Below are positions 9,517 to 23,443 of a DNA stretch of 24,976 nucleotides, piece by piece. The notes beneath the pieces are model-generated. The model saw nothing but the letters and a program-made list of their open reading frames with translations. It made no database searches and was not told the DNA's origin. The position numbers and the translations under genes are program-made. Where the stretch lies: the IMG/VR virus record IMGVR_UViG_3300021956_000073, positions 1 through 24,976 of that record; one strand, written 5' to 3'. Numbering within the stretch: the first letter of the stretch is position 1; the number at the start of each line of letters is the position of its first letter. The DNA comes from a virus.

Positions 9517-10919
9517 ATAAACGGCCCACCGCCCTACCATACCAACGGGAAGGCGTGCGGATGATTGAGCAATTTGGGGGCAAGGCCCTGTTATTCGATG
9601 AACAGGGCCTTGGCAAGACCGTCCAGGCGTTATGGACTATCCGCCGTAACCAGGCATACTGGCCGGCAATTGTAGTCTGCCCGGCAATTGTGAAAATCAA
9701 CTGGCAACGCGAGGCGGCATACCATGTGGGGATGAGGGCGGCGGTATGTAGTGGCCGCCGCCCTCCCCGCCCCGGGGTCCAGTTGACTGAAACCCACCAC
9801 ATATATGTCATCAATTATGACATTCTCGATAATTGGTTTGAGTGGCTCTATATGCTGGGTGCCGGCAGCATCTGGTTCGACGAATCACAGAACCTTGGCA
9901 ACCGGGAAACCGGATGGACGCAGGCGGCCAAAGAACTCTCGCGGCACATCCCGCACCGGGTAGCCATGTCCGGCACCCCGTTCATGAACTACCCACGGGA
10001 GTTATGGCCCACGCTCAATATAGTGCGGCCGGATTTATTTCCCAGCTTCCCGCAGTATGCCGTCGAGTATTGCGCCCCCAAGAAACAACCGTGGGGCTGG
10101 ACGTACAACGGGGCCACCAACCTCGAGGGGTTAAATACCCTGCTACGGGAACACATGATGGTTCGGCGGCTAAAGGTAGAGGTTGCTAGGGACCTACCAC
10201 CCAAGACCCGTAGCGTGCAGGTGGTGCCCCTTACTAACCGAGAAGAGTATGAACACGCCGAGGGTGACTTCCTTGGTTGGTTGGGTGGTGTGGATATTGC
10301 CCGTGCCGAGCGGGCGGCCCGCGCGGAAGCGGTGACCCGTGTTACCTACCTGCGGCAACTCGCGGCACGGGGGAAGGTAGCGGCTATCAAGGAGTGGCTC
10401 AAAAACTGGCAAGCCACCACAAACGAGAAACTCGTGGTGTTTACCTATCACCGTAAACTCATGGAAGTGCTGATAAAACACTTTGGCAAGGTGGCCGTGC
10501 ATATCGATGGTACGGTTACCGGCGAGGCTCGCCAGGCGGCGGTTGACCAGTTTCAACGGGACAAGAAATCAATATTCTGTTTCATACAAATCCGTAGTGG
10601 CGGTGTGGGTATTACACTCACGTCCGCTTCTTCCGCATTATTTTGTGAGTTGGATAGTGTGCCAGGCCGGCACAGCCAGGCCGAGGACCGCATCCACCGC
10701 ATCGGCCAAACTAAAAACGTATTCATCTACTACCTTATTGCCGAGGGTACGGTAGACGAAGATCTGGCGGAAGTGGTGCAGGGCAAGCAGGGTAATTTTG
10801 ACCAGGTGTTCGACGGGTCCAATAACGGCTCCCTCAATATCCTGAACCTATTGGTAGAGAAAATACAAACAAGGAGTAGAAGCCGTGCCACGACCAAGAA
10901 GAAACGTGTCCAGAAGTAA
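9513..10919 (+). CDS. SNF2-family DNA helicase/translocase
   Basis: A 468-residue superfamily 2 ATPase, similar in size to SMARCAL1/HepA-type phage enzymes. Motifs in order: Q-motif region LPYQREGVRMI (8-18), Walker A DEQGLGKT (29-36), and motif Ib around VVCPAIVKINW. Walker B is WFDESQ (121-126; DESQ instead of DEAH), motif III SGTPFMNYPRELW (153-165), motif V GGVGITLTSAS (363-373) and motif VI QAEDRIHRIGQT (389-400). It would use ATP to move along duplex DNA, remodelling forks or removing proteins. The Lys/Arg-rich tail overlaps the next gene by 35 bases. Placed just before primase and initiator, so a replication role is likely. Confidence 0.93.
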   Translation: MNKRPTALPYQREGVRMIEQFGGKALLFDEQGLGKTVQALWTIRRNQAYWPAIVVCPAIVKINWQREAAYHVGMRAAVCSGRRPPRPGVQLTETHHIYVINYDILDNWFEWLYMLGAGSIWFDESQNLGNRETGWTQAAKELSRHIPHRVAMSGTPFMNYPRELWPTLNIVRPDLFPSFPQYAVEYCAPKKQPWGWTYNGATNLEGLNTLLREHMMVRRLKVEVARDLPPKTRSVQVVPLTNREEYEHAEGDFLGWLGGVDIARAERAARAEAVTRVTYLRQLAARGKVAAIKEWLKNWQATTNEKLVVFTYHRKLMEVLIKHFGKVAVHIDGTVTGEARQAAVDQFQRDKKSIFCFIQIRSGGVGITLTSASSALFCELDSVPGRHSQAEDRIHRIGQTKNVFIYYLIAEGTVDEDLAEVVQGKQGNFDQVFDGSNNGSLNILNLLVEKIQTRSRSRATTKKKRVQK

Positions 10920-11220
10920 CGGGCACGCAATCAATGTGCGGGGCATACCGCCTATGGTCCACCAGGCGTTCAAGAGCTACTGCCACCGCCGCAACATTAG
11001 TATGATGGACGCTATTGTGTTCCTTATGGCCAAGTGCGTACAGCGGGGCATCCGGCTTGAAATCTACAACGGCCACCCACCGGAGACCGGTGCCGATTTT
11101 AGCCCCACGGCGGCCGAGGCGCGGGCCACAAACGAAGAACGGGCTAAGGTTAGCCGGGGCCTGCAACGGGCCGCCGACCCCCGGGTAGCCGCCGTGCTCA
11201 ATACAAGGATGGGTGTGTGA
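10885..11220 (+). CDS. ribbon-helix-helix-like DNA-binding protein
   Basis: A 111-residue protein with GTG start at 10885, supported by AAGGAG eight bases upstream. After a basic N-terminus (PRPRRNVSRSNGHA), residues 16-50 read as strand INVRGIPP, helix MVHQAFKSYCHRRN, turn ISM, helix MDAIVFLMAKCVQRG. This is the Arc/MetJ ribbon-helix-helix layout of small dimeric repressors. The C-terminus is helical and polar. It starts inside the 3' end of the SNF2 gene, and its stop forms GTGA with the primase start. It is a candidate for the repressor of the palindromic sites in the window. Confidence 0.6.
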   Translation: MPRPRRNVSRSNGHAINVRGIPPMVHQAFKSYCHRRNISMMDAIVFLMAKCVQRGIRLEIYNGHPPETGADFSPTAAEARATNEERAKVSRGLQRAADPRVAAVLNTRMGV

Positions 11221-12101
11221 ACTTCCGTGACATCCTAGACCGCTACAATATCCCCTACATAGCCGAGGGGCACGAGCACTGCCGCCCCGGGTGGTTGCAG
11301 CTAGACTGCCCTAACTGCTCGCCCAACAGCGGCCGGTGGCGGCTCGGGTACAACCTAGCCCACCACTACACGAACTGCTGGCAATGCGGCCGGGTGGACC
11401 TACTGCGGTTCTTTGAAACGGTAACGGGGGCCAGCCGCACAGAAACCAGGCAGGCACTAGCCGGCATCATACGCGAACGGGCGGCCTCGCGGCCTCGCGG
11501 CACATTAAAATTGCCGGCGGGTGTGGGTGAGCTCCTACCGGCCCACACCCGGTACCTACGCTCGCGCGGCTTTGACCCCGGGGCACTCGTCAAATTATGG
11601 GGCCTTGGCGGCATTGGGCTGGCCAAAGAACTTCAATGGCGTGTTTTTATACCCATCCACCTCTATGGGGATGTGGTCAGTTGGACTACACGGAGTATAT
11701 CGGATGAGCATAGCACACGTTACCGTTCGGCGGCGGCTACCGATGAAGCAATACCCCACAAAACCATCCTCTATGGTGAAGACTATGCCCGGCACACGGC
11801 CATCGTTGTCGAGGGGCCGGTGGATGCGTGGGCCGGTGGCCCGGGCGTTGTGGGGACTTGCGGTACGGGGTTTAGTCAATCGCAGGTCGCCCGGCTCGCC
11901 CGGTATGCTACGCGGGTTGTATGCTTTGATAATGCGGCGGATGCTCGCAAACGTTCACGTGAATTGGCGATGGCACTTTCTGCCTTTCCGGGCAAGACGT
12001 ATGAGGCGGAAATCGACGCCAAGGATCTAGCGGAGGATTTGCAGCGGACGGGTGGCAAGGAAATAAAACAATTACGAAAACACTTTTTGCGGGACACCTA
12101 A
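11217..12101 (+). CDS. DNA primase (zinc-finger plus Toprim)
   Basis: A 294-residue bacterial/phage-type primase starting at GTG 11217 in a GTGA overlap. The N-terminal zinc-binding domain has C31-x2-C34 and C54-x2-C57 (CPNC and CWQC), which bind template. The Toprim domain has VVEGPVDAW (197-205; catalytic Glu199) and a strand VVCFDNAADA (234-243). In canonical Toprim the second motif is D-x-D; here it reads D238-N-A, so the second Asp is missing or displaced to D242. It would make RNA primers for lagging-strand synthesis. It is short compared with DnaG (about 600) and has no helicase domain, which is supplied by 13446-14855. Confidence 0.88.
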   Translation: MNFRDILDRYNIPYIAEGHEHCRPGWLQLDCPNCSPNSGRWRLGYNLAHHYTNCWQCGRVDLLRFFETVTGASRTETRQALAGIIRERAASRPRGTLKLPAGVGELLPAHTRYLRSRGFDPGALVKLWGLGGIGLAKELQWRVFIPIHLYGDVVSWTTRSISDEHSTRYRSAAATDEAIPHKTILYGEDYARHTAIVVEGPVDAWAGGPGVVGTCGTGFSQSQVARLARYATRVVCFDNAADARKRSRELAMALSAFPGKTYEAEIDAKDLAEDLQRTGGKEIKQLRKHFLRDT

Positions 12102-12198
12102 CAATGACCGGCTAGGTGGTGGCGAATTAGTGCCCGCCTACGCACCACACGGCCCACCACGGGCCCGGCGGCCGTAAATAGCCCACAGGTAGCCAGTT

Positions 12199-12228
12199 TT
12201 TACAGCTACGTTTATACGGCCGTATAGG
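12199..12228 (+). promoter_or_regulatory. probable promoter with 14-bp palindrome before the initiator gene
   Basis: TTTACA at 12199-12204 is followed after 17-18 bases by GTATAG/TATAGG at 12222-12228. The perfect palindrome TATACGGCCGTATA (12213-12226) spans the downstream half of the spacer and the -10. A protein bound there would block the promoter. It lies in the 164-base gap between primase and initiator; the rest of that gap shows nothing else clear. Confidence 0.45.
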
Positions 12229-12265
12229 CATTTACACCACCTACACATGACGTGAGGTATGAGGT

Positions 12266-13459
12266 ATGGAAACCCAGGTGCAGCAATTCCGTGGGGTTTG
12301 GTATCCGCCGGAAATCTTTGGGTTATTGCGGGAGGGGCACATCAACGCCGGTGAGTTTGTCCTCATTGGCATCATCGACAGCTTCACCCGTAGTGGCGAG
12401 GGGTGCTTTGCCTCTAACGGCTACCTCGCCGGCTATATGGGTACTTCGGAAGAGTCTATACGGCGAATGTTGGCCAAACTAGAGGGCCTAAACGTCATCG
12501 CACGGGGTACAAACGACTCCAATCAACGGGTAATAATGACTGTGTGGAATCCCCCGATAGGAGGACCACAAATTTGTGGAGGGGGGGTCCACAAATTTGT
12601 GGACATAAGAGTATACCTTAAGAGCAAAGCTAAGCGCTTTGCTCAGACCGGGCCGGCTACACAACCCGAACAAACAAACACCACCGAACAAACAAACACC
12701 ACCGAACAAACCCCAACCCCACCAAACCCCAAAAAACAAAAAAAGATGCCATTCATACCAACAACACCAAAGGGCCAACCCGAGGCTATAGACCTTCAAT
12801 TGCAGGAACAACTACGCACCGCCCTACTCAAGACCATCCACCCCACCGGCGGCTATAGTGCTAGGGGTTGGGCCGGTGCCTTCCACCTCCTCCGGACCAA
12901 GGACGCAGTGCCCCTGCCACACCTGCAAGAAGTTCTAAATTGGTACTGTGAGAATATTGGGGGGCCCTACGTGCCCCAGGCACTATCTGCTGCCGGCTTC
13001 CGCCAAAAATTCAATGCCATTACCGCCGCTATGGAACGCGCCGGCGGGGCCGCGCCGGTGGTAACCCCGGAAGCAGAAGAAGTTTACCGGCGGCTATCGA
13101 TGTTGGGTTGGGGTGCGATCAGCTCTGACGTTCTACGCATCGAAATACAACGGACGATGGACACATACCGGGAATTAAAGGATAGAATCCTTATATTTGA
13201 ACCAGCACAGGGCACACCCCTTCACCAGTATCGTGTGATGCTATCCGAGCAATTAGAACCGGAAGCACACTTTGCCGAAAACTGGCTTCGCACTATCCAC
13301 CACCATTTCAGAACTAAGGAATACACCGACTTTGGGCGGTACCGATTCCGGGACGACCACCCGGATTACACGGCGCGGCAACGACATTGGGCGGAGGTGA
13401 ATTGTGGGCGGGCGGATTATTGGCCCCGGATGCTGGAGGCCATAAATGCAAATCCATGA
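12266..13459 (+). CDS. winged-helix replication initiator (lambda O/DnaD-like)
   Basis: A 397-residue protein with the layout of a phage replisome organiser. Residues 25-95 form a winged helix-turn-helix (GEFVLIGIIDSFTRSGEGCFASNGYLAGYM, then TSEESIRRMLAKLEGLNVI and a wing). A disordered linker (134-160) contains NTTEQT repeats and a Lys-rich stretch. The C-terminal domain (165-397) would contact helicase or primase. GAGGT about eight bases upstream marks the start. Position between primase and DnaB-like helicase supports the role. The DNA encoding residues 100-165 holds two palindromes, a hairpin and an A/C-rich repeat tract, like the origin inside lambda gene O. No specific family is named with certainty. 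Confidence 0.72.
   Translation: METQVQQFRGVWYPPEIFGLLREGHINAGEFVLIGIIDSFTRSGEGCFASNGYLAGYMGTSEESIRRMLAKLEGLNVIARGTNDSNQRVIMTVWNPPIGGPQICGGGVHKFVDIRVYLKSKAKRFAQTGPATQPEQTNTTEQTNTTEQTPTPPNPKKQKKMPFIPTTPKGQPEAIDLQLQEQLRTALLKTIHPTGGYSARGWAGAFHLLRTKDAVPLPHLQEVLNWYCENIGGPYVPQALSAAGFRQKFNAITAAMERAGGAAPVVTPEAEEVYRRLSMLGWGAISSDVLRIEIQRTMDTYRELKDRILIFEPAQGTPLHQYRVMLSEQLEPEAHFAENWLRTIHHHFRTKEYTDFGRYRFRDDHPDYTARQRHWAEVNCGRADYWPRMLEAINANP
12566..12602. repeat. pair of identical palindromes inside the initiator gene (candidate origin iterons)
   Basis: CCACAAATTTGTGG occurs at 12566-12579 and again at 12589-12602, each a perfect 14-base palindrome, with centres 23 bases apart and a run of seven G between. 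The second extends to an 18-base perfect palindrome (12587-12604). They are in the coding region just after the DNA-binding domain, where lambda-type origins carry their iterons. Encoded residues (GPQICGGGVHKFVD) differ between copies because the frame is shifted, so the identity is not due to protein repeats. Confidence 0.7.
12622..12644. repeat. 9-bp hairpin inside the initiator gene
   Basis: GAGCAAAGC at 12622-12630 and GCTTTGCTC at 12636-12644 pair perfectly around a five-base loop (TAAGC). It lies 18 bases after the second palindrome and just before the A/C-rich repeat tract. This is consistent with a structured origin or a single-strand priming site. It could also be fortuitous. Confidence 0.5.
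12666..12711 (+). repeat. 18-bp tandem repeat, about 2.6 copies, A/C-rich
   Basis: CCGAACAAACAAACACCA occurs at 12666-12683 and 12684-12701, with a partial third copy at 12702-12711. It encodes the NTTEQT linker repeats. The tract up to about 12744 is nearly free of G on the top strand and ends in A-runs (AAAAAACAAAAAAAG). This strong strand asymmetry resembles the easily melted segment next to iterons in lambdoid origins. Confidence 0.7.
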
Positions 13460-14855
13460 CCGTAGTGGTGACGAAGAGCGGCGGATCGTCATTGGTATGG
13501 TTGTGAGTCGCACGGTCACCGCTCGCATAGCCGGTATGTGGCCGGCACCGGGCGAACCGGGTCCGTTCGCAAGTAAGTGGGCCAACCTTGTGGGTCAGTG
13601 GTGTACGGTGTACTTCCGCAGATACGGGGAAGCACCCGGGGCAAATATCCGGGGTATGTTTGCCGCCTGGTGCGGCCGGCAGCAACGGGACAAGGACACA
13701 TTAGATTTAGTAGAGCGATTCCTTACGGCCATGTCAGAAGAATATGAGGCCGGAGAAGAACTCAATGCAGAATACATCATTGACATAGCCGGCAAGCACT
13801 TCACACAAACCCGGGCCCAGCGGTTGGCCGAGGTTATTACGGGGGCGATTGATAGCGGGGACCTGGAACAGGCGGTCACGGCCATAGCCGGGTTCCGCGC
13901 GGCCAGCCTTGGTGTGGGTGGGTATGTGGATGTGTTGCAAAATGAGGAAGCTATCCGGGCCGCCCTAGAGACGCAGGCCGGCAGCCTCATAACATACCCC
14001 GGTGCATTGGGTGAGTTTTATGGTAATGCTCTAGCACCGGATTCGCTCATTGCCTACATGGCACCGGAGAAGCGGGGCAAGTCATTTGTCCTGATGGACA
14101 ATGCCTGGGTAGCGATGGAGCAACGGCGGCGGTGCGCATTCTTTTCCATTGGCGATATGTCCCAGGACCAAATGCTCCGACGGCTCGCCGCCCGCATAGC
14201 ACGCCGCCCGCTCCGGGCCGGGCATATCGAATACCCTACCAAGATCCAGCGGTTGGGCACCGTGGACGAAGAGGCATTCATTGAAAAAGACACCCGGACA
14301 TGGGAGCAACCCCTTGATTGGAGGGAGGTGGTAGCCGGTGCGGACAAGGTCATGCAGCACCGTATCCGCAGCCGCCAATCATACTTCCGCCTAGCCACCC
14401 ACCCCTCCGGTACAATGAACGTAGCCAATATCGAAGATAAGCTATCACAGTGGGATGCGGAGGGGTGGGTGGCCGAGGTGGTTGTCATTGACTATGCCGA
14501 CATCCTAGCTCCGCCCCGTGGCCATGCGGAAGAGCAGGGACAGATCGACGCAACCTGGAGCCAACTACGGGGGCTATCCCAAAAACGACATAACCTCATT
14601 ATTACGGCGACCCAGGCAGATGCGGCGAGCTATACGGCCCGCACGCTAACACCACAAAACTTCAGCCGCGATAAACGGAAATTTGCCCATGTGACCGGTA
14701 TGGTTGGTATCAATTGCACCGAAATGGAGAAGCGGAATGGGGTGTTGCGGTTTAATTGGTTGGCCCTGCGTGAAGAGGATTACACGGTTAGCCGTTGCGT
14801 TCACCTGGCCGGGTGCCGGGCCATTGGGAACATTGCTATAAGGAGCTGCTGGTGA
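13446..14855 (+). CDS. DnaB-like replicative helicase (RecA fold)
   Basis: A 469-residue protein. The first 160 residues form a helical N-terminal domain (LDLVERFLTAMSEEYEAGEELNAEYIIDIAGKHF and on) comparable to the DnaB/phage Gp4 linker region. The ATPase core has Walker A APEKRGKSF (206-214; Gly-Lys-Ser 211-213), a GDMS segment (237-240) typical of DnaB-type catalytic Glu/Asp surroundings, and Walker B VVVIDYADIL (345-354). A later TATQADAAS segment is equivalent to motif H3. It would unwind DNA at the fork and work with the primase. GGAGG lies six bases upstream; it overlaps the initiator by 14 bases. The last about ten residues look irregular. Confidence 0.85.
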   Translation: MQIHDRSGDEERRIVIGMVVSRTVTARIAGMWPAPGEPGPFASKWANLVGQWCTVYFRRYGEAPGANIRGMFAAWCGRQQRDKDTLDLVERFLTAMSEEYEAGEELNAEYIIDIAGKHFTQTRAQRLAEVITGAIDSGDLEQAVTAIAGFRAASLGVGGYVDVLQNEEAIRAALETQAGSLITYPGALGEFYGNALAPDSLIAYMAPEKRGKSFVLMDNAWVAMEQRRRCAFFSIGDMSQDQMLRRLAARIARRPLRAGHIEYPTKIQRLGTVDEEAFIEKDTRTWEQPLDWREVVAGADKVMQHRIRSRQSYFRLATHPSGTMNVANIEDKLSQWDAEGWVAEVVVIDYADILAPPRGHAEEQGQIDATWSQLRGLSQKRHNLIITATQADAASYTARTLTPQNFSRDKRKFAHVTGMVGINCTEMEKRNGVLRFNWLALREEDYTVSRCVHLAGCRAIGNIAIRSCW

Positions 14856-16365: not shown

Positions 16366-16558
16366 TATTCATTTTGTGTGTCGCACAGGACCGCCCCGCT
16401 AGCCCCGAGGGCGAAGGCCGAAAAAATCAAAGCCAAGCAACACGACCCATAGGTAAGGTCTAGTACTCCCTGACTAATGGCGTGGCCGTCTGCAGCGGTG
16501 CGTAGGTTTCGGGGGATTGAGCAATGCCGCCCGTTCTGTGCGACACACAAAATGAATA
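16366..16558. repeat. 23-bp perfect inverted repeat enclosing 147 bases
   Basis: The arms 16366-16388 and 16536-16558 are exact reverse complements (core TTTTGTGTGTCGCACAG and CTGTGCGACACACAAAA). The right arm contains the ATG of the PLP-enzyme gene at 16552, so an RNA crossing both arms would bury the start codon in a stem. The enclosed 147 bases have no gene I can support. No flanking target duplication is visible, so a miniature mobile element is possible but unproven. Confidence 0.75.
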
Positions 16559-17403
16559 CGCAAGATTATACACCCGACTTGACACCCGTTGAGTATGCCC
16601 CAGAAAATGGTGTATACTACAAACGGGATGATTATCACCAAGTAGGTGGTATCCGTGGCGGAAAGGTGCGAGCCTGTTTGCGCATAATACACGAGGCCGA
16701 GATAAAAGCCGGGGGGCATGTGGGTGGCGTGGTAACGGCATCCGCCCGCAAATCCCCACAAATGCAAATCGTTGCCCGCCTCGCGGCCTACCGTGGCCTA
16801 CCGGCCCGGCTGCACACGGCTAGCGGGCCCAATACTCCGGAAATGGACGATGCCGTGGCTAATGGGGGTGTGTTAGTGCAGCACCGACCCGGGTATAACA
16901 GTGTGATATGCAGTAGGGCAGAACAGGATGCAAAAGACCTTGGGTATTGTTACATTCCCTTTGGTATGGAGCATCCCGTGGCTATGCAATGCACACGGGA
17001 ACAGGCCGCCGGGCTAAAACACACTCTGAAATGGGCAGGCAGCCATAATACAAAGGGCCCTCGCATTAAACGGATTGTCGTGGTATTGGGTAGCGGCATG
17101 ACCGCCGCCGGCATCCTTTGGGGCCTACGTGATATTGGCTGTACACTGCCGGTGGTGGGTGTGCAGATCGGTGCAGACCCACGGAAAAGGCTGAACAAAC
17201 ACGCCCCGCCGTTTTGGCACCAGCAGTTATCCATCATAACATCGCCCTATAAATATGAATCGGCAGCCACCCAATACGTTGGGAATGATAATGAAGCCGC
17301 TCAACTTGATCCACATTACGAGGCCAAGGCCCATTTCTACGTGGAACGGGGCGACCTATTTTGGGTTGTGGGTGTGCGTGCAGGAGCCCTAGAACATGAG
17401 TAA
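16552..17403 (+). CDS. PLP-dependent fold-type II enzyme (ACC deaminase/D-cysteine desulfhydrase-like)
   Basis: A 283-residue pyridoxal-phosphate enzyme of the tryptophan-synthase-beta superfamily. YYKRDD (22-27) and GGIRGGKVR (32-40) correspond to the substrate/PLP-lysine region, with K38 the likely Schiff-base lysine. TASARKSPQMQIVARLAAYRG (62-82) matches the S/N-x-x-R-x-x-A-x-x-A helix. VVLGSGMTAAGI (177-188) is the glycine-rich phosphate loop, and LDPHYEAKAH (252-261) matches the LDP-x-Y-x-x-KA motif. It likely acts on a small amino acid; the substrate is unknown, with amino-acid deamination or nucleobase decoration both possible. ATG at 16552 has no Shine-Dalgarno and lies in the inverted-repeat arm; an earlier ATG at 16477 would add a low-quality leader. 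Confidence 0.8.
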   Translation: MNTQDYTPDLTPVEYAPENGVYYKRDDYHQVGGIRGGKVRACLRIIHEAEIKAGGHVGGVVTASARKSPQMQIVARLAAYRGLPARLHTASGPNTPEMDDAVANGGVLVQHRPGYNSVICSRAEQDAKDLGYCYIPFGMEHPVAMQCTREQAAGLKHTLKWAGSHNTKGPRIKRIVVVLGSGMTAAGILWGLRDIGCTLPVVGVQIGADPRKRLNKHAPPFWHQQLSIITSPYKYESAATQYVGNDNEAAQLDPHYEAKAHFYVERGDLFWVVGVRAGALEHE

Positions 17404-20090: not shown

Positions 20091-21323
20091 ATGCCACGAG
20101 GTTTTTTTGCCGCCTCGCGCCTCGGGCAATCCAAGGCACCACCACCATCAGAGCCCTATTGCGGGGCGTGCGGGCTCTACAAAACGTGCCGCAGCCCCAA
20201 AATGCCCTGGTCGGGTGCTGGCCGCCGCCGCGTGCTTATAGTAGCCGAGGCCCCGGGGCCCGACGAAGACGCAACAGGCACGCAACAGGCGGGCAAGGTG
20301 GGGCAATACCTACGCCGGGCATTGTTTGCCCTGGGCGTAGACCTAGACCGCGACTGCTGGACCACGAATACGTTGATCTGTATGCCCCAGGATGGCCGCA
20401 AACCCACGGGCAAGGAAATTAGCTACTGCCGGCCCAACCTCCTCAACACAATCCAAGAATTACAACCAGAAATAATTATCCTGCTAGGAGGCACACCACT
20501 AGAGTCATTGGTGGGGTATTATTGGAAGGAGGATACAGGAGGTATTGCATTGTGGGCCGGGGCCCGTGTGCCCCACCAACGGTCGAATACCTGGATATGC
20601 CCTACATTCCACCCATTGTCGGTAATGCGAGAAGAAGAAAAGTGCCGCGAAAAAGAAGTGTGTGTGTCCAAGCTATGGTGGGAACGGCATTTAGCCGCCG
20701 CGTTCGGGCTAACCGGGAGGCCGTGGCCGGTGGTTCCGGATTACCGTGGCGAAATCACCCGCATCATGGATCCCGGAGATGCGGCGGCGGCCATTGACCG
20801 TATTATCGAACAGGGCGGCCCGTGTGCATTTGATTATGAAACAAACATGCTTAAGCCGGACGGGGCGGACGCCCGCATTGTCAGCGTGTCTATCTGCCAC
20901 AAAGACAAACAAACCATCGCCTATCCCTACCACGGGGCGGCTATAGCGGCCACAAAACGGTTCCTGCAGTCTAACATCCCTAAAATAGCCTCAAATATGA
21001 AGTTCGAGGATCGTTGGTCCCTAGCCGTCGCACAAACTCCTGTTGCCAATTGGTACTTTGATACGATGCAGGGGGCACACCTCCTAGATAGCCGCCCCGG
21101 TGTCACATCCATCAAATACCAGGCGTTTGTACGGCTGGGGTTCGAGCGGTATGACACCCACATTGAGCCATACCTAAAAACACGCGGCTCACGGCAGGCC
21201 AACCAGGTACTCCGCGAAATTGATATTATGGATTTGTTGTTGTACAACGGGCTAGATAGCCTCCTGGAGTACCGGGTGGCGAAGAAGCAAACGCGAGAAC
21301 TTAATTACCCGCCACCACGATAG
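20091..21323 (+). CDS. uracil-DNA glycosylase fused to 3'-5' exonuclease
   Basis: A 410-residue two-domain protein. Residues 20-205 match family 4/5 uracil-DNA glycosylase: cysteines C24-x2-C27, C97 and C113 fit a 4Fe-4S cluster, with EAPGPDEDATG (53-63), GKVGQYLRRAL (68-78), LLGGTPLESLVG (131-142) and TFHPLSVMRE (172-181). Residues 243-400 are a DnaQ/Pol I-type exonuclease: ExoI FDYET (D248, E250), ExoII SNMKFED (N302, E306 where Pol I has Asp, D307 next), ExoIII YNGLD (Y385, D389). It lacks the polymerase domain, encoded at 22028. The UDG-exonuclease-polymerase order is known from phage SPO1, so this looks like a split version providing uracil recognition and proofreading. Confidence 0.88.
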   Translation: MPRGFFAASRLGQSKAPPPSEPYCGACGLYKTCRSPKMPWSGAGRRRVLIVAEAPGPDEDATGTQQAGKVGQYLRRALFALGVDLDRDCWTTNTLICMPQDGRKPTGKEISYCRPNLLNTIQELQPEIIILLGGTPLESLVGYYWKEDTGGIALWAGARVPHQRSNTWICPTFHPLSVMREEEKCREKEVCVSKLWWERHLAAAFGLTGRPWPVVPDYRGEITRIMDPGDAAAAIDRIIEQGGPCAFDYETNMLKPDGADARIVSVSICHKDKQTIAYPYHGAAIAATKRFLQSNIPKIASNMKFEDRWSLAVAQTPVANWYFDTMQGAHLLDSRPGVTSIKYQAFVRLGFERYDTHIEPYLKTRGSRQANQVLREIDIMDLLLYNGLDSLLEYRVAKKQTRELNYPPPR

Positions 21324-21343: not shown

Positions 21344-22015
21344 ATGGAAGACACCCCCACAACCACCGAGGCACCGGCTGCAGAGCAATCCACCATCAGC
21401 AGAAATGACATTATCGGCAGCCGCTTCCTATCGTCAACGGCAATCTCAAACCTTTTTACAATGGGTTGCGCGGCGGCGATAGACCCACGGCAGGCAATAC
21501 CCGGTAAACCCACGATGCCCGGGCCCGACGTGCGGTTAGTCCGTGACCGCCTGATCTTCGAAGAGGTGTTGGAATTGGTTGTGGCACTGGGCGGTACCAT
21601 CCACACAAAAGACACGAGCGCCGGCATTGTTAAGGGAAATGTGGAATTTGTGGACCACGGCAACCCAAACCTCGACGCGGCCATTGACGCCTGCTGCGAC
21701 ATCATTTATGTTGCCGTAGGCACGCTCCTTGCAATGGGGGTGCCGGACATTCCGCACATAAACCTCGTAAACCTCCGCAACAACCAAAAATTCCCCGATA
21801 TGATGGCGGTGGTTGACGCTAACGGCAAATTCCAGAAGCCGGAGGGGTGGGTGGCACCAAACCACGAGGAATTAATCGCCGAAATGCAACAACAATGCCC
21901 ACTCGACATAGCCCGGTTTCAGGCCGGGCTATTGGAACGGCACCGCAACCGGCGAGAGGCCCTAAAGCGGACCGAAACCGCCACAACCAACACACCACAA
22001 AACCCCGTAGGCTAG
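21344..22015 (+). CDS. MazG-like NTP pyrophosphohydrolase
   Basis: A 223-residue protein of the all-alpha NTP-pyrophosphatase superfamily. The metal-binding helices are visible as RDRLIFEEVLELVVAL (residues 67-82; E73, E74, E77) and DAAIDACCDIIYVAVGTLLAMG (111-132; D115, D119). A conserved-looking tail NNQKFPDM...ANGKFQKPEGWVAPN follows. It would hydrolyse a (d)NTP to (d)NMP, cleaning or shaping the nucleotide pool. The first about 20 residues are disordered and acidic/Thr-rich. AAGGAA lies eight bases upstream. It sits exactly between the exonuclease and polymerase halves of the replicase. Confidence 0.82.
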   Translation: MEDTPTTTEAPAAEQSTISRNDIIGSRFLSSTAISNLFTMGCAAAIDPRQAIPGKPTMPGPDVRLVRDRLIFEEVLELVVALGGTIHTKDTSAGIVKGNVEFVDHGNPNLDAAIDACCDIIYVAVGTLLAMGVPDIPHINLVNLRNNQKFPDMMAVVDANGKFQKPEGWVAPNHEELIAEMQQQCPLDIARFQAGLLERHRNRREALKRTETATTNTPQNPVG

Positions 22016-22027
22016 GCGGCACCGGCT

Positions 22028-23443
22028 ATGGTACGTGCTGCAACACCCGAGGCTTATGCACTGATGCACAATGGGGCCCTTGCCCTATCGCGCATGGAGG
22101 CCAATGGTGTGAAGATTGATCTAGACTATCTTCACAGGACCATGTCCGAGATCCAGGACCGCATACGCAGTATGGAGGGGCGTTTGTGGGAGTCGGAGGT
22201 GGGTGGACGGTGGCGTAGGCGGTTTGGTGACCGCGCGGCCGTGGATAGCCGAGAACAACTCGCCACCATCCTATTCTCAGATATGGGAGTAGGCGGTGGC
22301 AAAATAACGGCCGGCGGTAAACTATCGGCCGATGTGGAGGTGTTGGAGCGGCTGGATACGCCGTTTACCCGCAACTACACCAAACTCCAGAAACTAAAAA
22401 AGGTTTACGGAACCTACCTAACCGGGTTGTTGCGAGAGACAGAGAATGGCATCCTGCACCCATTTTTCTCACTCCACACTGTTCGCACATACCGCTCTTC
22501 CAGCAGTAACCCCAACCTGCAAAACATACCCATCCGCGACCCGGACATTGCGGCAATTATTCGCCCCAGTTTCCTACCACACCACCCCGACCACCATATC
22601 CTAGAAATAGATATCAAGGCAGCGGAGGTGCGGGTAGCCGCGTGCTACCACCAGGACCCGACGATGTTGAAGTACATCCGGGAAAATTACGATATGCACA
22701 GGGACATGGCCCTGGAATGCTTTAAGTTAGATGCAGATGACTTTAAGACATTGGGGCAGAAAAGCTATTTAGATGATATAAGGCAACAGGTCAAGGCCTT
22801 GTTTGTATTTGCCGAGTTCTACGGCAGTTACTGGCTCAATGTGGCACCCAGCCTATGGGAGGCGTGCGATAGATACAAACTGAATGGACCGGACGGGAGG
22901 CCATTAAAAGATTGGCTACTAACCCACGGTGTGGCAGAGTTGGGTGAAGTGCGTCGCGGCGAGCGGCCTCGCGCCGGCACATTCACCAACCATATTATGC
23001 AGGTGGAAGATAATTTTTGGAACCGCAGGTTCCCGGTATACCGAGATTGGAAGAAGCGGTGGTTTGCCGCCTACCAAAAGGAGGGGGGTTTTTCTACCCT
23101 CACCGGCTTCCGTATTGACGGTATCCTAGGTCGCAACGACGTGATTAACTACCCGGTACAGGGAAGTGCCTTCCATTGCCTCCTATGGTGCCTAACGGAC
23201 ATCACCAACTGGCTAACCGCCCGTAATATGCGTAGCATGTTGGTCGGCCAAATACATGATAGTTTGTTGGCTAGCGTACATACAAACGAACTAGCCGAAT
23301 TTGTAGCGTATGTGCGGCATGTGTTTACGGCAAAACTACCGGCAGCGTGGCGTTGGATTATTACACCGATGGATATTGACATTGCCCTAGCACCGTTAGG
23401 GCAATCGTGGCACCAAAAACAAAAAATGAAACTAACCGCATAG
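22028..23443 (+). CDS. family A DNA polymerase, polymerase domain only
   Basis: A 471-residue protein carrying only the polymerase domain of a Pol I-type enzyme. Signature segments: RSSSSNPNLQNIPIRD (156-171), motif A EIDIKAAEVR (193-202; catalytic D195), motif B R252-x3-K256 with FVFAEFYGSYW (259-269), YPVQGS (375-380) and motif C GQIHDSLLASVH (407-418; H410, D411). The extra residue in the K-x8-YG spacing is usual in several phage polymerases with FVF-x2-FYGS. There is no 5' nuclease and no 3'-5' exonuclease domain; the latter is in the separate UDG fusion upstream. It is the replicative polymerase of the phage. Confidence 0.93.
   Translation: MVRAATPEAYALMHNGALALSRMEANGVKIDLDYLHRTMSEIQDRIRSMEGRLWESEVGGRWRRRFGDRAAVDSREQLATILFSDMGVGGGKITAGGKLSADVEVLERLDTPFTRNYTKLQKLKKVYGTYLTGLLRETENGILHPFFSLHTVRTYRSSSSNPNLQNIPIRDPDIAAIIRPSFLPHHPDHHILEIDIKAAEVRVAACYHQDPTMLKYIRENYDMHRDMALECFKLDADDFKTLGQKSYLDDIRQQVKALFVFAEFYGSYWLNVAPSLWEACDRYKLNGPDGRPLKDWLLTHGVAELGEVRRGERPRAGTFTNHIMQVEDNFWNRRFPVYRDWKKRWFAAYQKEGGFSTLTGFRIDGILGRNDVINYPVQGSAFHCLLWCLTDITNWLTARNMRSMLVGQIHDSLLASVHTNELAEFVAYVRHVFTAKLPAAWRWIITPMDIDIALAPLGQSWHQKQKMKLTA

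Follow-up and report, generated by a model that had tools for sequence, protein, structure and literature searches.

Replication origins that lie inside the gene for the replication initiator are textbook knowledge for phage lambda, and they are also known for phage SPP1, lactococcal phages, and RepA_N plasmids. In lambda, inverted-repeat iterons are bound by dimers of the O protein, which open the AT-rich DNA next to them (PMC5043065, PMC7466680), and two iterons together with the AT-rich region are enough for unwinding (PMC7466680). The SPP1 initiator gp38 binds direct repeats in its own gene 38 at oriL, with an AT-rich unwinding element adjoining (PMC6316719). The RepA_N initiator of plasmid pSK41 and the hybrid Rep of pPR9 both have a winged helix-turn-helix (wHTH) N-terminal domain, an origin-encoded central linker, and a C-terminal domain that binds the host machinery (PMC5703833). 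In pPR9, a PF13730 N-terminal domain and its origin region have replaced those of pSK41, and autonomous replication was supported (PMC5703833).

The stretch of viral DNA analysed here (the window, 24,976 bases, from an uncultivated phage) carries a plus-strand replication initiator gene (12266-13459), and sequence comparison makes it very probable that two identical palindromes within this gene are iterons bound by the encoded initiator and form the phage replication origin. The 397-amino-acid product consists of an N-terminal winged helix, a disordered linker, and a helical C-terminal part. It appears to belong with the HTH_36/phrog_270 replication initiators, given matches to phrog_270 (replication initiation protein, E=8.7e-7), to phrog_345 (O-like, E=1.3e-5), and, over residues 25-75, to PF13730 (HTH_36), where the score of 25.5 bits lies only marginally above the curated cut-off of 25. 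The winged-helix DNA-binding domain (residues 12-93; codons at 12299-12544, plus strand), with its recognition helix around SEESIRRMLAKL, was placed by AlphaFold and by fold matches. AlphaFold pLDDT is 66-90 over most of this block, and the full-length model is poor outside it. The fold matches are to MarR-type wHTH domains and to the N-terminal domains of pSK41-type Rep proteins (4pt7, 5kbj), with E about 0.02.

Residues 96-176 form a linker predicted by AlphaFold to be disordered, and the C-terminal region (residues 176-397; 12791-13456, plus strand) is modelled as low-confidence helices. This region, expected to be the partner-binding part, is conserved with the orthologue L297 described below. 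A weak match to the DnaD-like helicase loader profile phrog_2514 (E=2.9e-4) spans residues 131-263. No match to PF04492 (Phage_rep_O) was found in the initiator up to E=1, whereas lambda O itself scores 5.7e-36, so membership in the lambda O family by sequence is excluded. Likewise, the initiator gives no match to the RepA_N family PF06970 up to E=1 and resembles the Rep N-terminal domain only weakly in fold.

Putative iteron 1 (CCACAAATTTGTGG, 12566-12579, unstranded) is read as PQICG at codon position 0, and putative iteron 2, an identical palindrome (12589-12602, unstranded), is read as VHKFVD at codon position 2. Both are perfect and lie 23 bp apart from centre to centre, which reproduces the coordinates and identity given in an earlier note on this DNA. 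Palindrome 2 extends further to an 18-bp dyad, GTCCACAAATTTGTGGAC. The pair begins at codon 101 and covers residues 101-112, directly after the wing. Because the spacing is 23 bp, the two copies fall in different frames, and because they are read in two frames, the repeated unit is DNA and not peptide. The out-of-frame repeat has p=0.001 when the protein is held fixed (2,000 synonymous shuffles), and the palindromes are selected at the DNA rather than the protein level.

Just four perfect 14-bp palindromes occur in the window, two of which make up this pair. No further copies of CCACAAATTTGTGG were found with up to three mismatches in the window or with up to two mismatches in a 41-kb IMG/VR contig of the same virus (identity 99.9-100% over 21.5 kb). 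Only two of 2.9 million IMG/VR contigs contain the exact pair, those of the present virus and of an unrelated phage (L005). A palindrome search of annotated phages and plasmids gave no relevant match, and an exact-word search of papers returned none for the palindrome. Another perfect 14-bp palindrome, TATACGGCCGTATA, lies at 12213-12226 in the gap just 5' of the initiator start and is possibly an operator or promoter element.

A candidate DNA unwinding element (12604-12634, unstranded) adjoins palindrome 2, at a position that is also AT-rich in L297 and in lambda. Its 30-bp stretch 12605-12634, chosen as the best among about 120 positions, falls among the least stable 0.74% of the window's 30-bp stretches; the stability of the candidate is modest. 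The 9-bp hairpin reported previously at 12622-12644 was found again, as the unstranded inverted repeat GAGCAAAG..CTTTGCTC with a 5-nt loop. Beyond it, a G- and T-poor A/C tract on the plus strand (12661-12744; 47 A, 34 C, 3 G, and 0 T) encodes the linker QPEQTNTTEQTNTTEQTPTPPNPKKQKK. Its A+C content is 96%, compared with a maximum of 74% elsewhere in the window, and it is the window's most strand-asymmetric stretch. An 18-bp tandem repeat of 2.6 copies (12666-12711, plus strand) is in frame, and therefore these repeats alone are no sign of DNA-level selection. The codon choices of the tract have log10 P = -6.9, which is an overestimate since the tract is a tandem repeat.

The earlier note had described this tract as nearly G-free and asymmetric, with 18-base tandem repeats, and as easily melted. 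All of this holds except the last point, because the tract ranks no lower in stability than the bottom 15-24% of the window, against 0.74% for 12605-12634. The segment 12604-12634 is thus more likely than the A/C tract to be the unwinding element, and the tract may serve as a single-strand loading tract for the helicase or may be plain repetitive linker. The palindromes, the hairpin, and the A/C tract are thus all encoded in the disordered linker, which leaves room for a signal at the DNA level.

The locus can now be set beside the described systems. In lambda, inverted-repeat iterons directly follow the codons of the DNA-binding domain within the initiator gene, as the putative iterons do here (from residue 117 in lambda and 101 here; PMC5043065). 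The lambda iterons are likewise distributed over several frames, at spacings of 20-24 bp, and the DNA after them is unstable, for which 12604-12634 is the candidate counterpart here. Lambda differs in having four iterons of 18-19 bp rather than two of 14 bp, a PF04492 protein, and a strong 40-bp AT-rich region. Moreover, the loader gene P follows O in lambda, whereas here a DnaB-like helicase gene follows the initiator gene and a primase gene precedes it. The proposal of a lambda-O-like origin is supported for the in-gene arrangement, by L297, by wider relatives, and by lambda O in the same test. It needs adjusting in that the protein is not a lambda O family member by sequence, the A/C tract is the less likely melting element, and the gene that follows does not encode a P-like loader. 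SPP1 is comparable by arrangement, and it has a second origin (oriR) elsewhere and a loader, gp39. The rep gene of phage Tuc2009, annotated as containing the origin, encodes a lactococcal DnaD-like protein of another family and has out-of-frame repeats with a spacing of 22 bp at residue 114. The pSK41 and pPR9 systems are plasmids with four Rep boxes, and RepA_N is a different Pfam family; however, the N-terminal domain of pPR9 Rep belongs to PF13730, as does that of the present initiator (PMC5703833). We regard pPR9 as the strongest external support for an in-gene origin of the HTH_36 type.

Only one full-length orthologue of the initiator was found, in IMG/VR contig 3300032259_000396 (L297), recovered by a search with the neighbouring helicase. 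The gene order there is identical (SNF2, primase, initiator, helicase), and the two initiators share 23% identity (E=3e-19); the window and L297 gave no reliable alignment at the DNA level. L297 lacks CCACAAATTTGTGG and instead carries two copies of the dyad GGGTTATGGATAACCC, which begin 22 bp from each other, at residues 128 and 136, and are read in two frames (p=0.0005). The DNA directly after these dyads is the least stable of that locus. The layout and number of sites are thus the same and the spacing is similar, whereas the dyad differs and the unwinding stretch is much more AT-rich. The earlier note had asked whether the palindromes persist in related phages; what persists in L297 is a pair of dyads at the same place, with a different sequence. 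The orthologue therefore does not show the loss of palindromes that the note had named as refuting. When a site and its binder evolve together, position, number, spacing, and frame shift should be kept while the sequence of the site changes, and the comparison of these two genes fits that expectation. Three features of an in-gene origin are found together: the repeats follow the DNA-binding domain, they are out of frame, and their layout is kept in the orthologue.

Phage L005, which is AT-rich, carries CCACAAATTTGTGG, ACACAAATTTGTGT, and CCACAAATTTGTGG at 22-bp intervals after the wHTH codons, in three frames (PQICG, TNLC, HKFVE), and its gene product matches phrog_11233 (replication initiation).

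We also searched wider sets of initiator genes for out-of-frame repeats 13-45 bp apart, comparing each gene with 300 synonymous shuffles. Among 17 non-redundant viral relatives, picked by protein motif only, 10 have significant out-of-frame repeats, nine of them spaced 22-23 bp, compared with one of 86 control genes. These repeats mostly start at residues 89-132, and one open frame apparently starts too far upstream. The prophage set comprised 63 open frames at phrog_270/345 matches in bacterial genomes, some of which are not true initiators. Sixteen of them scored at p<0.01 versus four of 106 other genes from the same loci (Fisher p=4e-5), and one of those four genes is itself an HTH_36 initiator missed by the locus rule. 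The spacing is 22 or 23 bp in 13 of the 16 positives, five of which form one Micromonospora family; with that family collapsed and the missed initiator moved, 10 of 13 still have this spacing. Repeats with a period of 21-24 bp are enriched in the prophage initiators and nearly absent in the controls. One initiator-like prophage gene (L261:922-2241) carries a run of 23-bp out-of-frame repeats of the TTTGCCCCAAACGGGCAAAC type over about 150 bp.

The same test is positive for lambda O (annotated iterons at residues 117-144, spacing 20/24/23, frames 0,2,2,1, p=0.0045) and for Tuc2009 rep (p=0.0005). It misses some known cases, as TP901-1 rep does not score (p=0.2). For about 40% of the viral relatives and for most prophage candidates, this out-of-frame test finds no significant repeat, partly because in-frame or imperfect repeats escape it. 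Viral matches to the pattern CCACANNNNTGTGG fall in wHTH genes, after the wHTH, in 11 of 20 cases, and a further match lies in a lambda O relative of family PF04492; one family dominates these matches, and six are intergenic and mostly DnaA-box-like. In genome contigs, CCACANNNNTGTGG pairs were set aside as mostly unrelated repeats or DnaA-box-like sites. The palindrome GGTGTNNNNACACC was rejected as a neutral control, being an abundant palindrome pair itself. Pairs of GGTGTNNNNACACC are very common in viral contigs (L082-L161), with a modal spacing of 23 bp among the matches listed; they occur between genes and inside open frames and are possibly repressor operators.

Recognition-helix and iteron sequences are correlated across 23 proteins (r=0.415, p=0.0002), in a comparison where four entries were chosen by their iteron and where p=0.053 without near relatives. 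That the two change together is only suggestive from these sequences, and any recognition code is not one-to-one, because L005 combines the iteron of the present virus with a different helix. On balance, we lean slightly toward a shared rule among the wHTH initiators of many phage families, by which iterons would immediately follow the wHTH codons at a spacing of 21-24 bp, in most cases out of frame, with a dyad that changes with the recognition helix. Such a rule is not universal, as HTH_36 plasmids of Paracoccus have been assigned origins upstream of rep, where their iterons are also predicted (PMC3832669).

The in-gene arrangement is already known, and the interest of these data is the generality of the spacing rule. 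We found no description in the open-access literature of a survey of in-gene phage origins, a quantitative spacing rule, or helix-iteron co-change. Most phage origins are unmapped, and if the rule is true, the origin of a phage with a wHTH initiator could be located within about 150 bp from sequence alone, as could most wHTH-type phage origins. Each initiator gene would then be a self-labelled protein-site pair, so that a wHTH recognition code could be tested on many natural pairs, and the rule would explain why a DNA-binding domain and its origin can be swapped as one cassette, as in pPR9.

Other roles for the palindromes must be weighed. They could be operators through which the wHTH protein or another regulator controls transcription via its own gene, with no replication role. 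Operator pairs are also typically about 23 bp apart, as the abundant GGTGTNNNNACACC pairs illustrate (modal spacing 23 among the matches listed), and the best fold matches of the initiator include MarR/ArsR repressors. However, the sites are 300 bp into the coding sequence, a search of 12080-13480 revealed no promoter-like site, and no copy of the palindrome is present at any promoter of the virus. The primase-initiator-helicase neighbourhood, the annotation of homologous families as replication initiators, and the AT-rich DNA after the repeats in L297 and lambda also speak against this role. A pure operator function is possible and poorly placed, and we judge it unlikely. The resemblance of the palindrome arms CCACA/TGTGG to the 3' part of DnaA boxes raises the question of whether host DnaA, and not the phage protein, recognizes the sites as paired boxes. 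ATGTCCACA at 12598 (minus strand) is one mismatch from TTGTCCACA, and the L297 dyad contains TTATCCATA, which is also one mismatch away. Nevertheless, TTRTNCACA is absent from the whole window, palindrome 1 is at best four mismatches off, the iterons of most relatives are two to five off, and iterons tend to differ in sequence when the recognition helix of the protein encoded with them differs, so that DnaA recognition seems very improbable.

An equally doubtful role is that of an RNA or single-strand hairpin, in which the palindromes would pair in a 15-bp stem acting in the mRNA or as a single-strand origin. The folding energy of 12555-12750 is low (z=-5.4), but any two identical palindromes would pair in this manner, repeats that show little dyad symmetry (such as TAAAGGGGGGTATT in L338) follow the 22-23 bp rule too, and there is no Rfam match. 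Finally, the repeats might serve the protein as a repetitive linker peptide, and repetition in the DNA would then be a by-product. Repetition is common in linkers, and both the 18-bp repeats and the SHKxVG repeats of L011/L014-L016 are in frame. Yet the frames and peptides of the palindromes differ here and in L297, L005, HU1, BcepMigl, and lambda, and the synonymous-shuffle tests reject this explanation. It is contradicted for the palindromes, where we give it almost no credence; the A/C tract may be plain linker.

The genes around the initiator are those of a replication region, with plus-strand genes for a SNF2-type helicase, a primase-like protein, the initiator, a DnaB-like helicase, a sliding clamp, and a two-gene family A polymerase. 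The primase-like (TOPRIM) gene lies just 5' of the initiator gene (11217-12101, plus strand; phrog_47 DNA primase, E=2.5e-19), and the DnaB-like replicative helicase gene (13446-14855, plus strand; phrog_19, E=6.1e-20) overlaps the initiator stop by 14 bp. No helicase loader was recognized beside the helicase gene. In a more distant relative (L299), a loader lies between initiator and helicase. Two other relatives (L298 and L301) have a primase adjoining the helicase, with no recognizable initiator between them. Cumulative GC skew over the 41-kb contig, a check proposed previously, forms a broad valley that is lowest at about window position 9548 and follows gene direction. There is thus no clear minimum elsewhere to contradict an origin in the initiator gene, and the skew does not mark the site either; we discarded it as an uninformative origin marker.

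We infer binding by the encoded protein, its dimer mode, strand opening at the site, and the hand-off to the helicase. By analogy with lambda, the initiator should bind the palindromes and open 12604-12634. Its winged-helix N-terminal domain would bind both palindromes, either as a dimer or with two wHTH domains on each. With a spacing of 23 bp, about two helical turns, the bound proteins would sit on almost the same side of the DNA, which they would bend. Bending would open the AT-rich segment 12604-12634, and the opening might reach into the A/C strand. The C-terminal domain might then recruit the DnaB-like helicase encoded by the next gene, with the phage primase supplied from the preceding one.

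Several observations concern other genes of this virus. The family A DNA polymerase is split into one gene with uracil-DNA-glycosylase-like and 3'-5' exonuclease parts (20091-21323) and another with the polymerase domain (22028-23443). The two match adjoining positions of phrog_17, and a nucleotide pyrophosphohydrolase gene (21344-22015) lies between them. In contig L203 of the same virus (3300021952_000010), a gene of the di-haem cytochrome c peroxidase/MauG type (L203:9699-10760; PF03150, E=4e-42) is located among structural genes. The replication region of the window also includes a pyridoxal-phosphate-dependent enzyme-like gene (16477-17403; PF00291, E=4.6e-9; phrog_3650), which has a similar-looking counterpart close to the L299 helicase gene.
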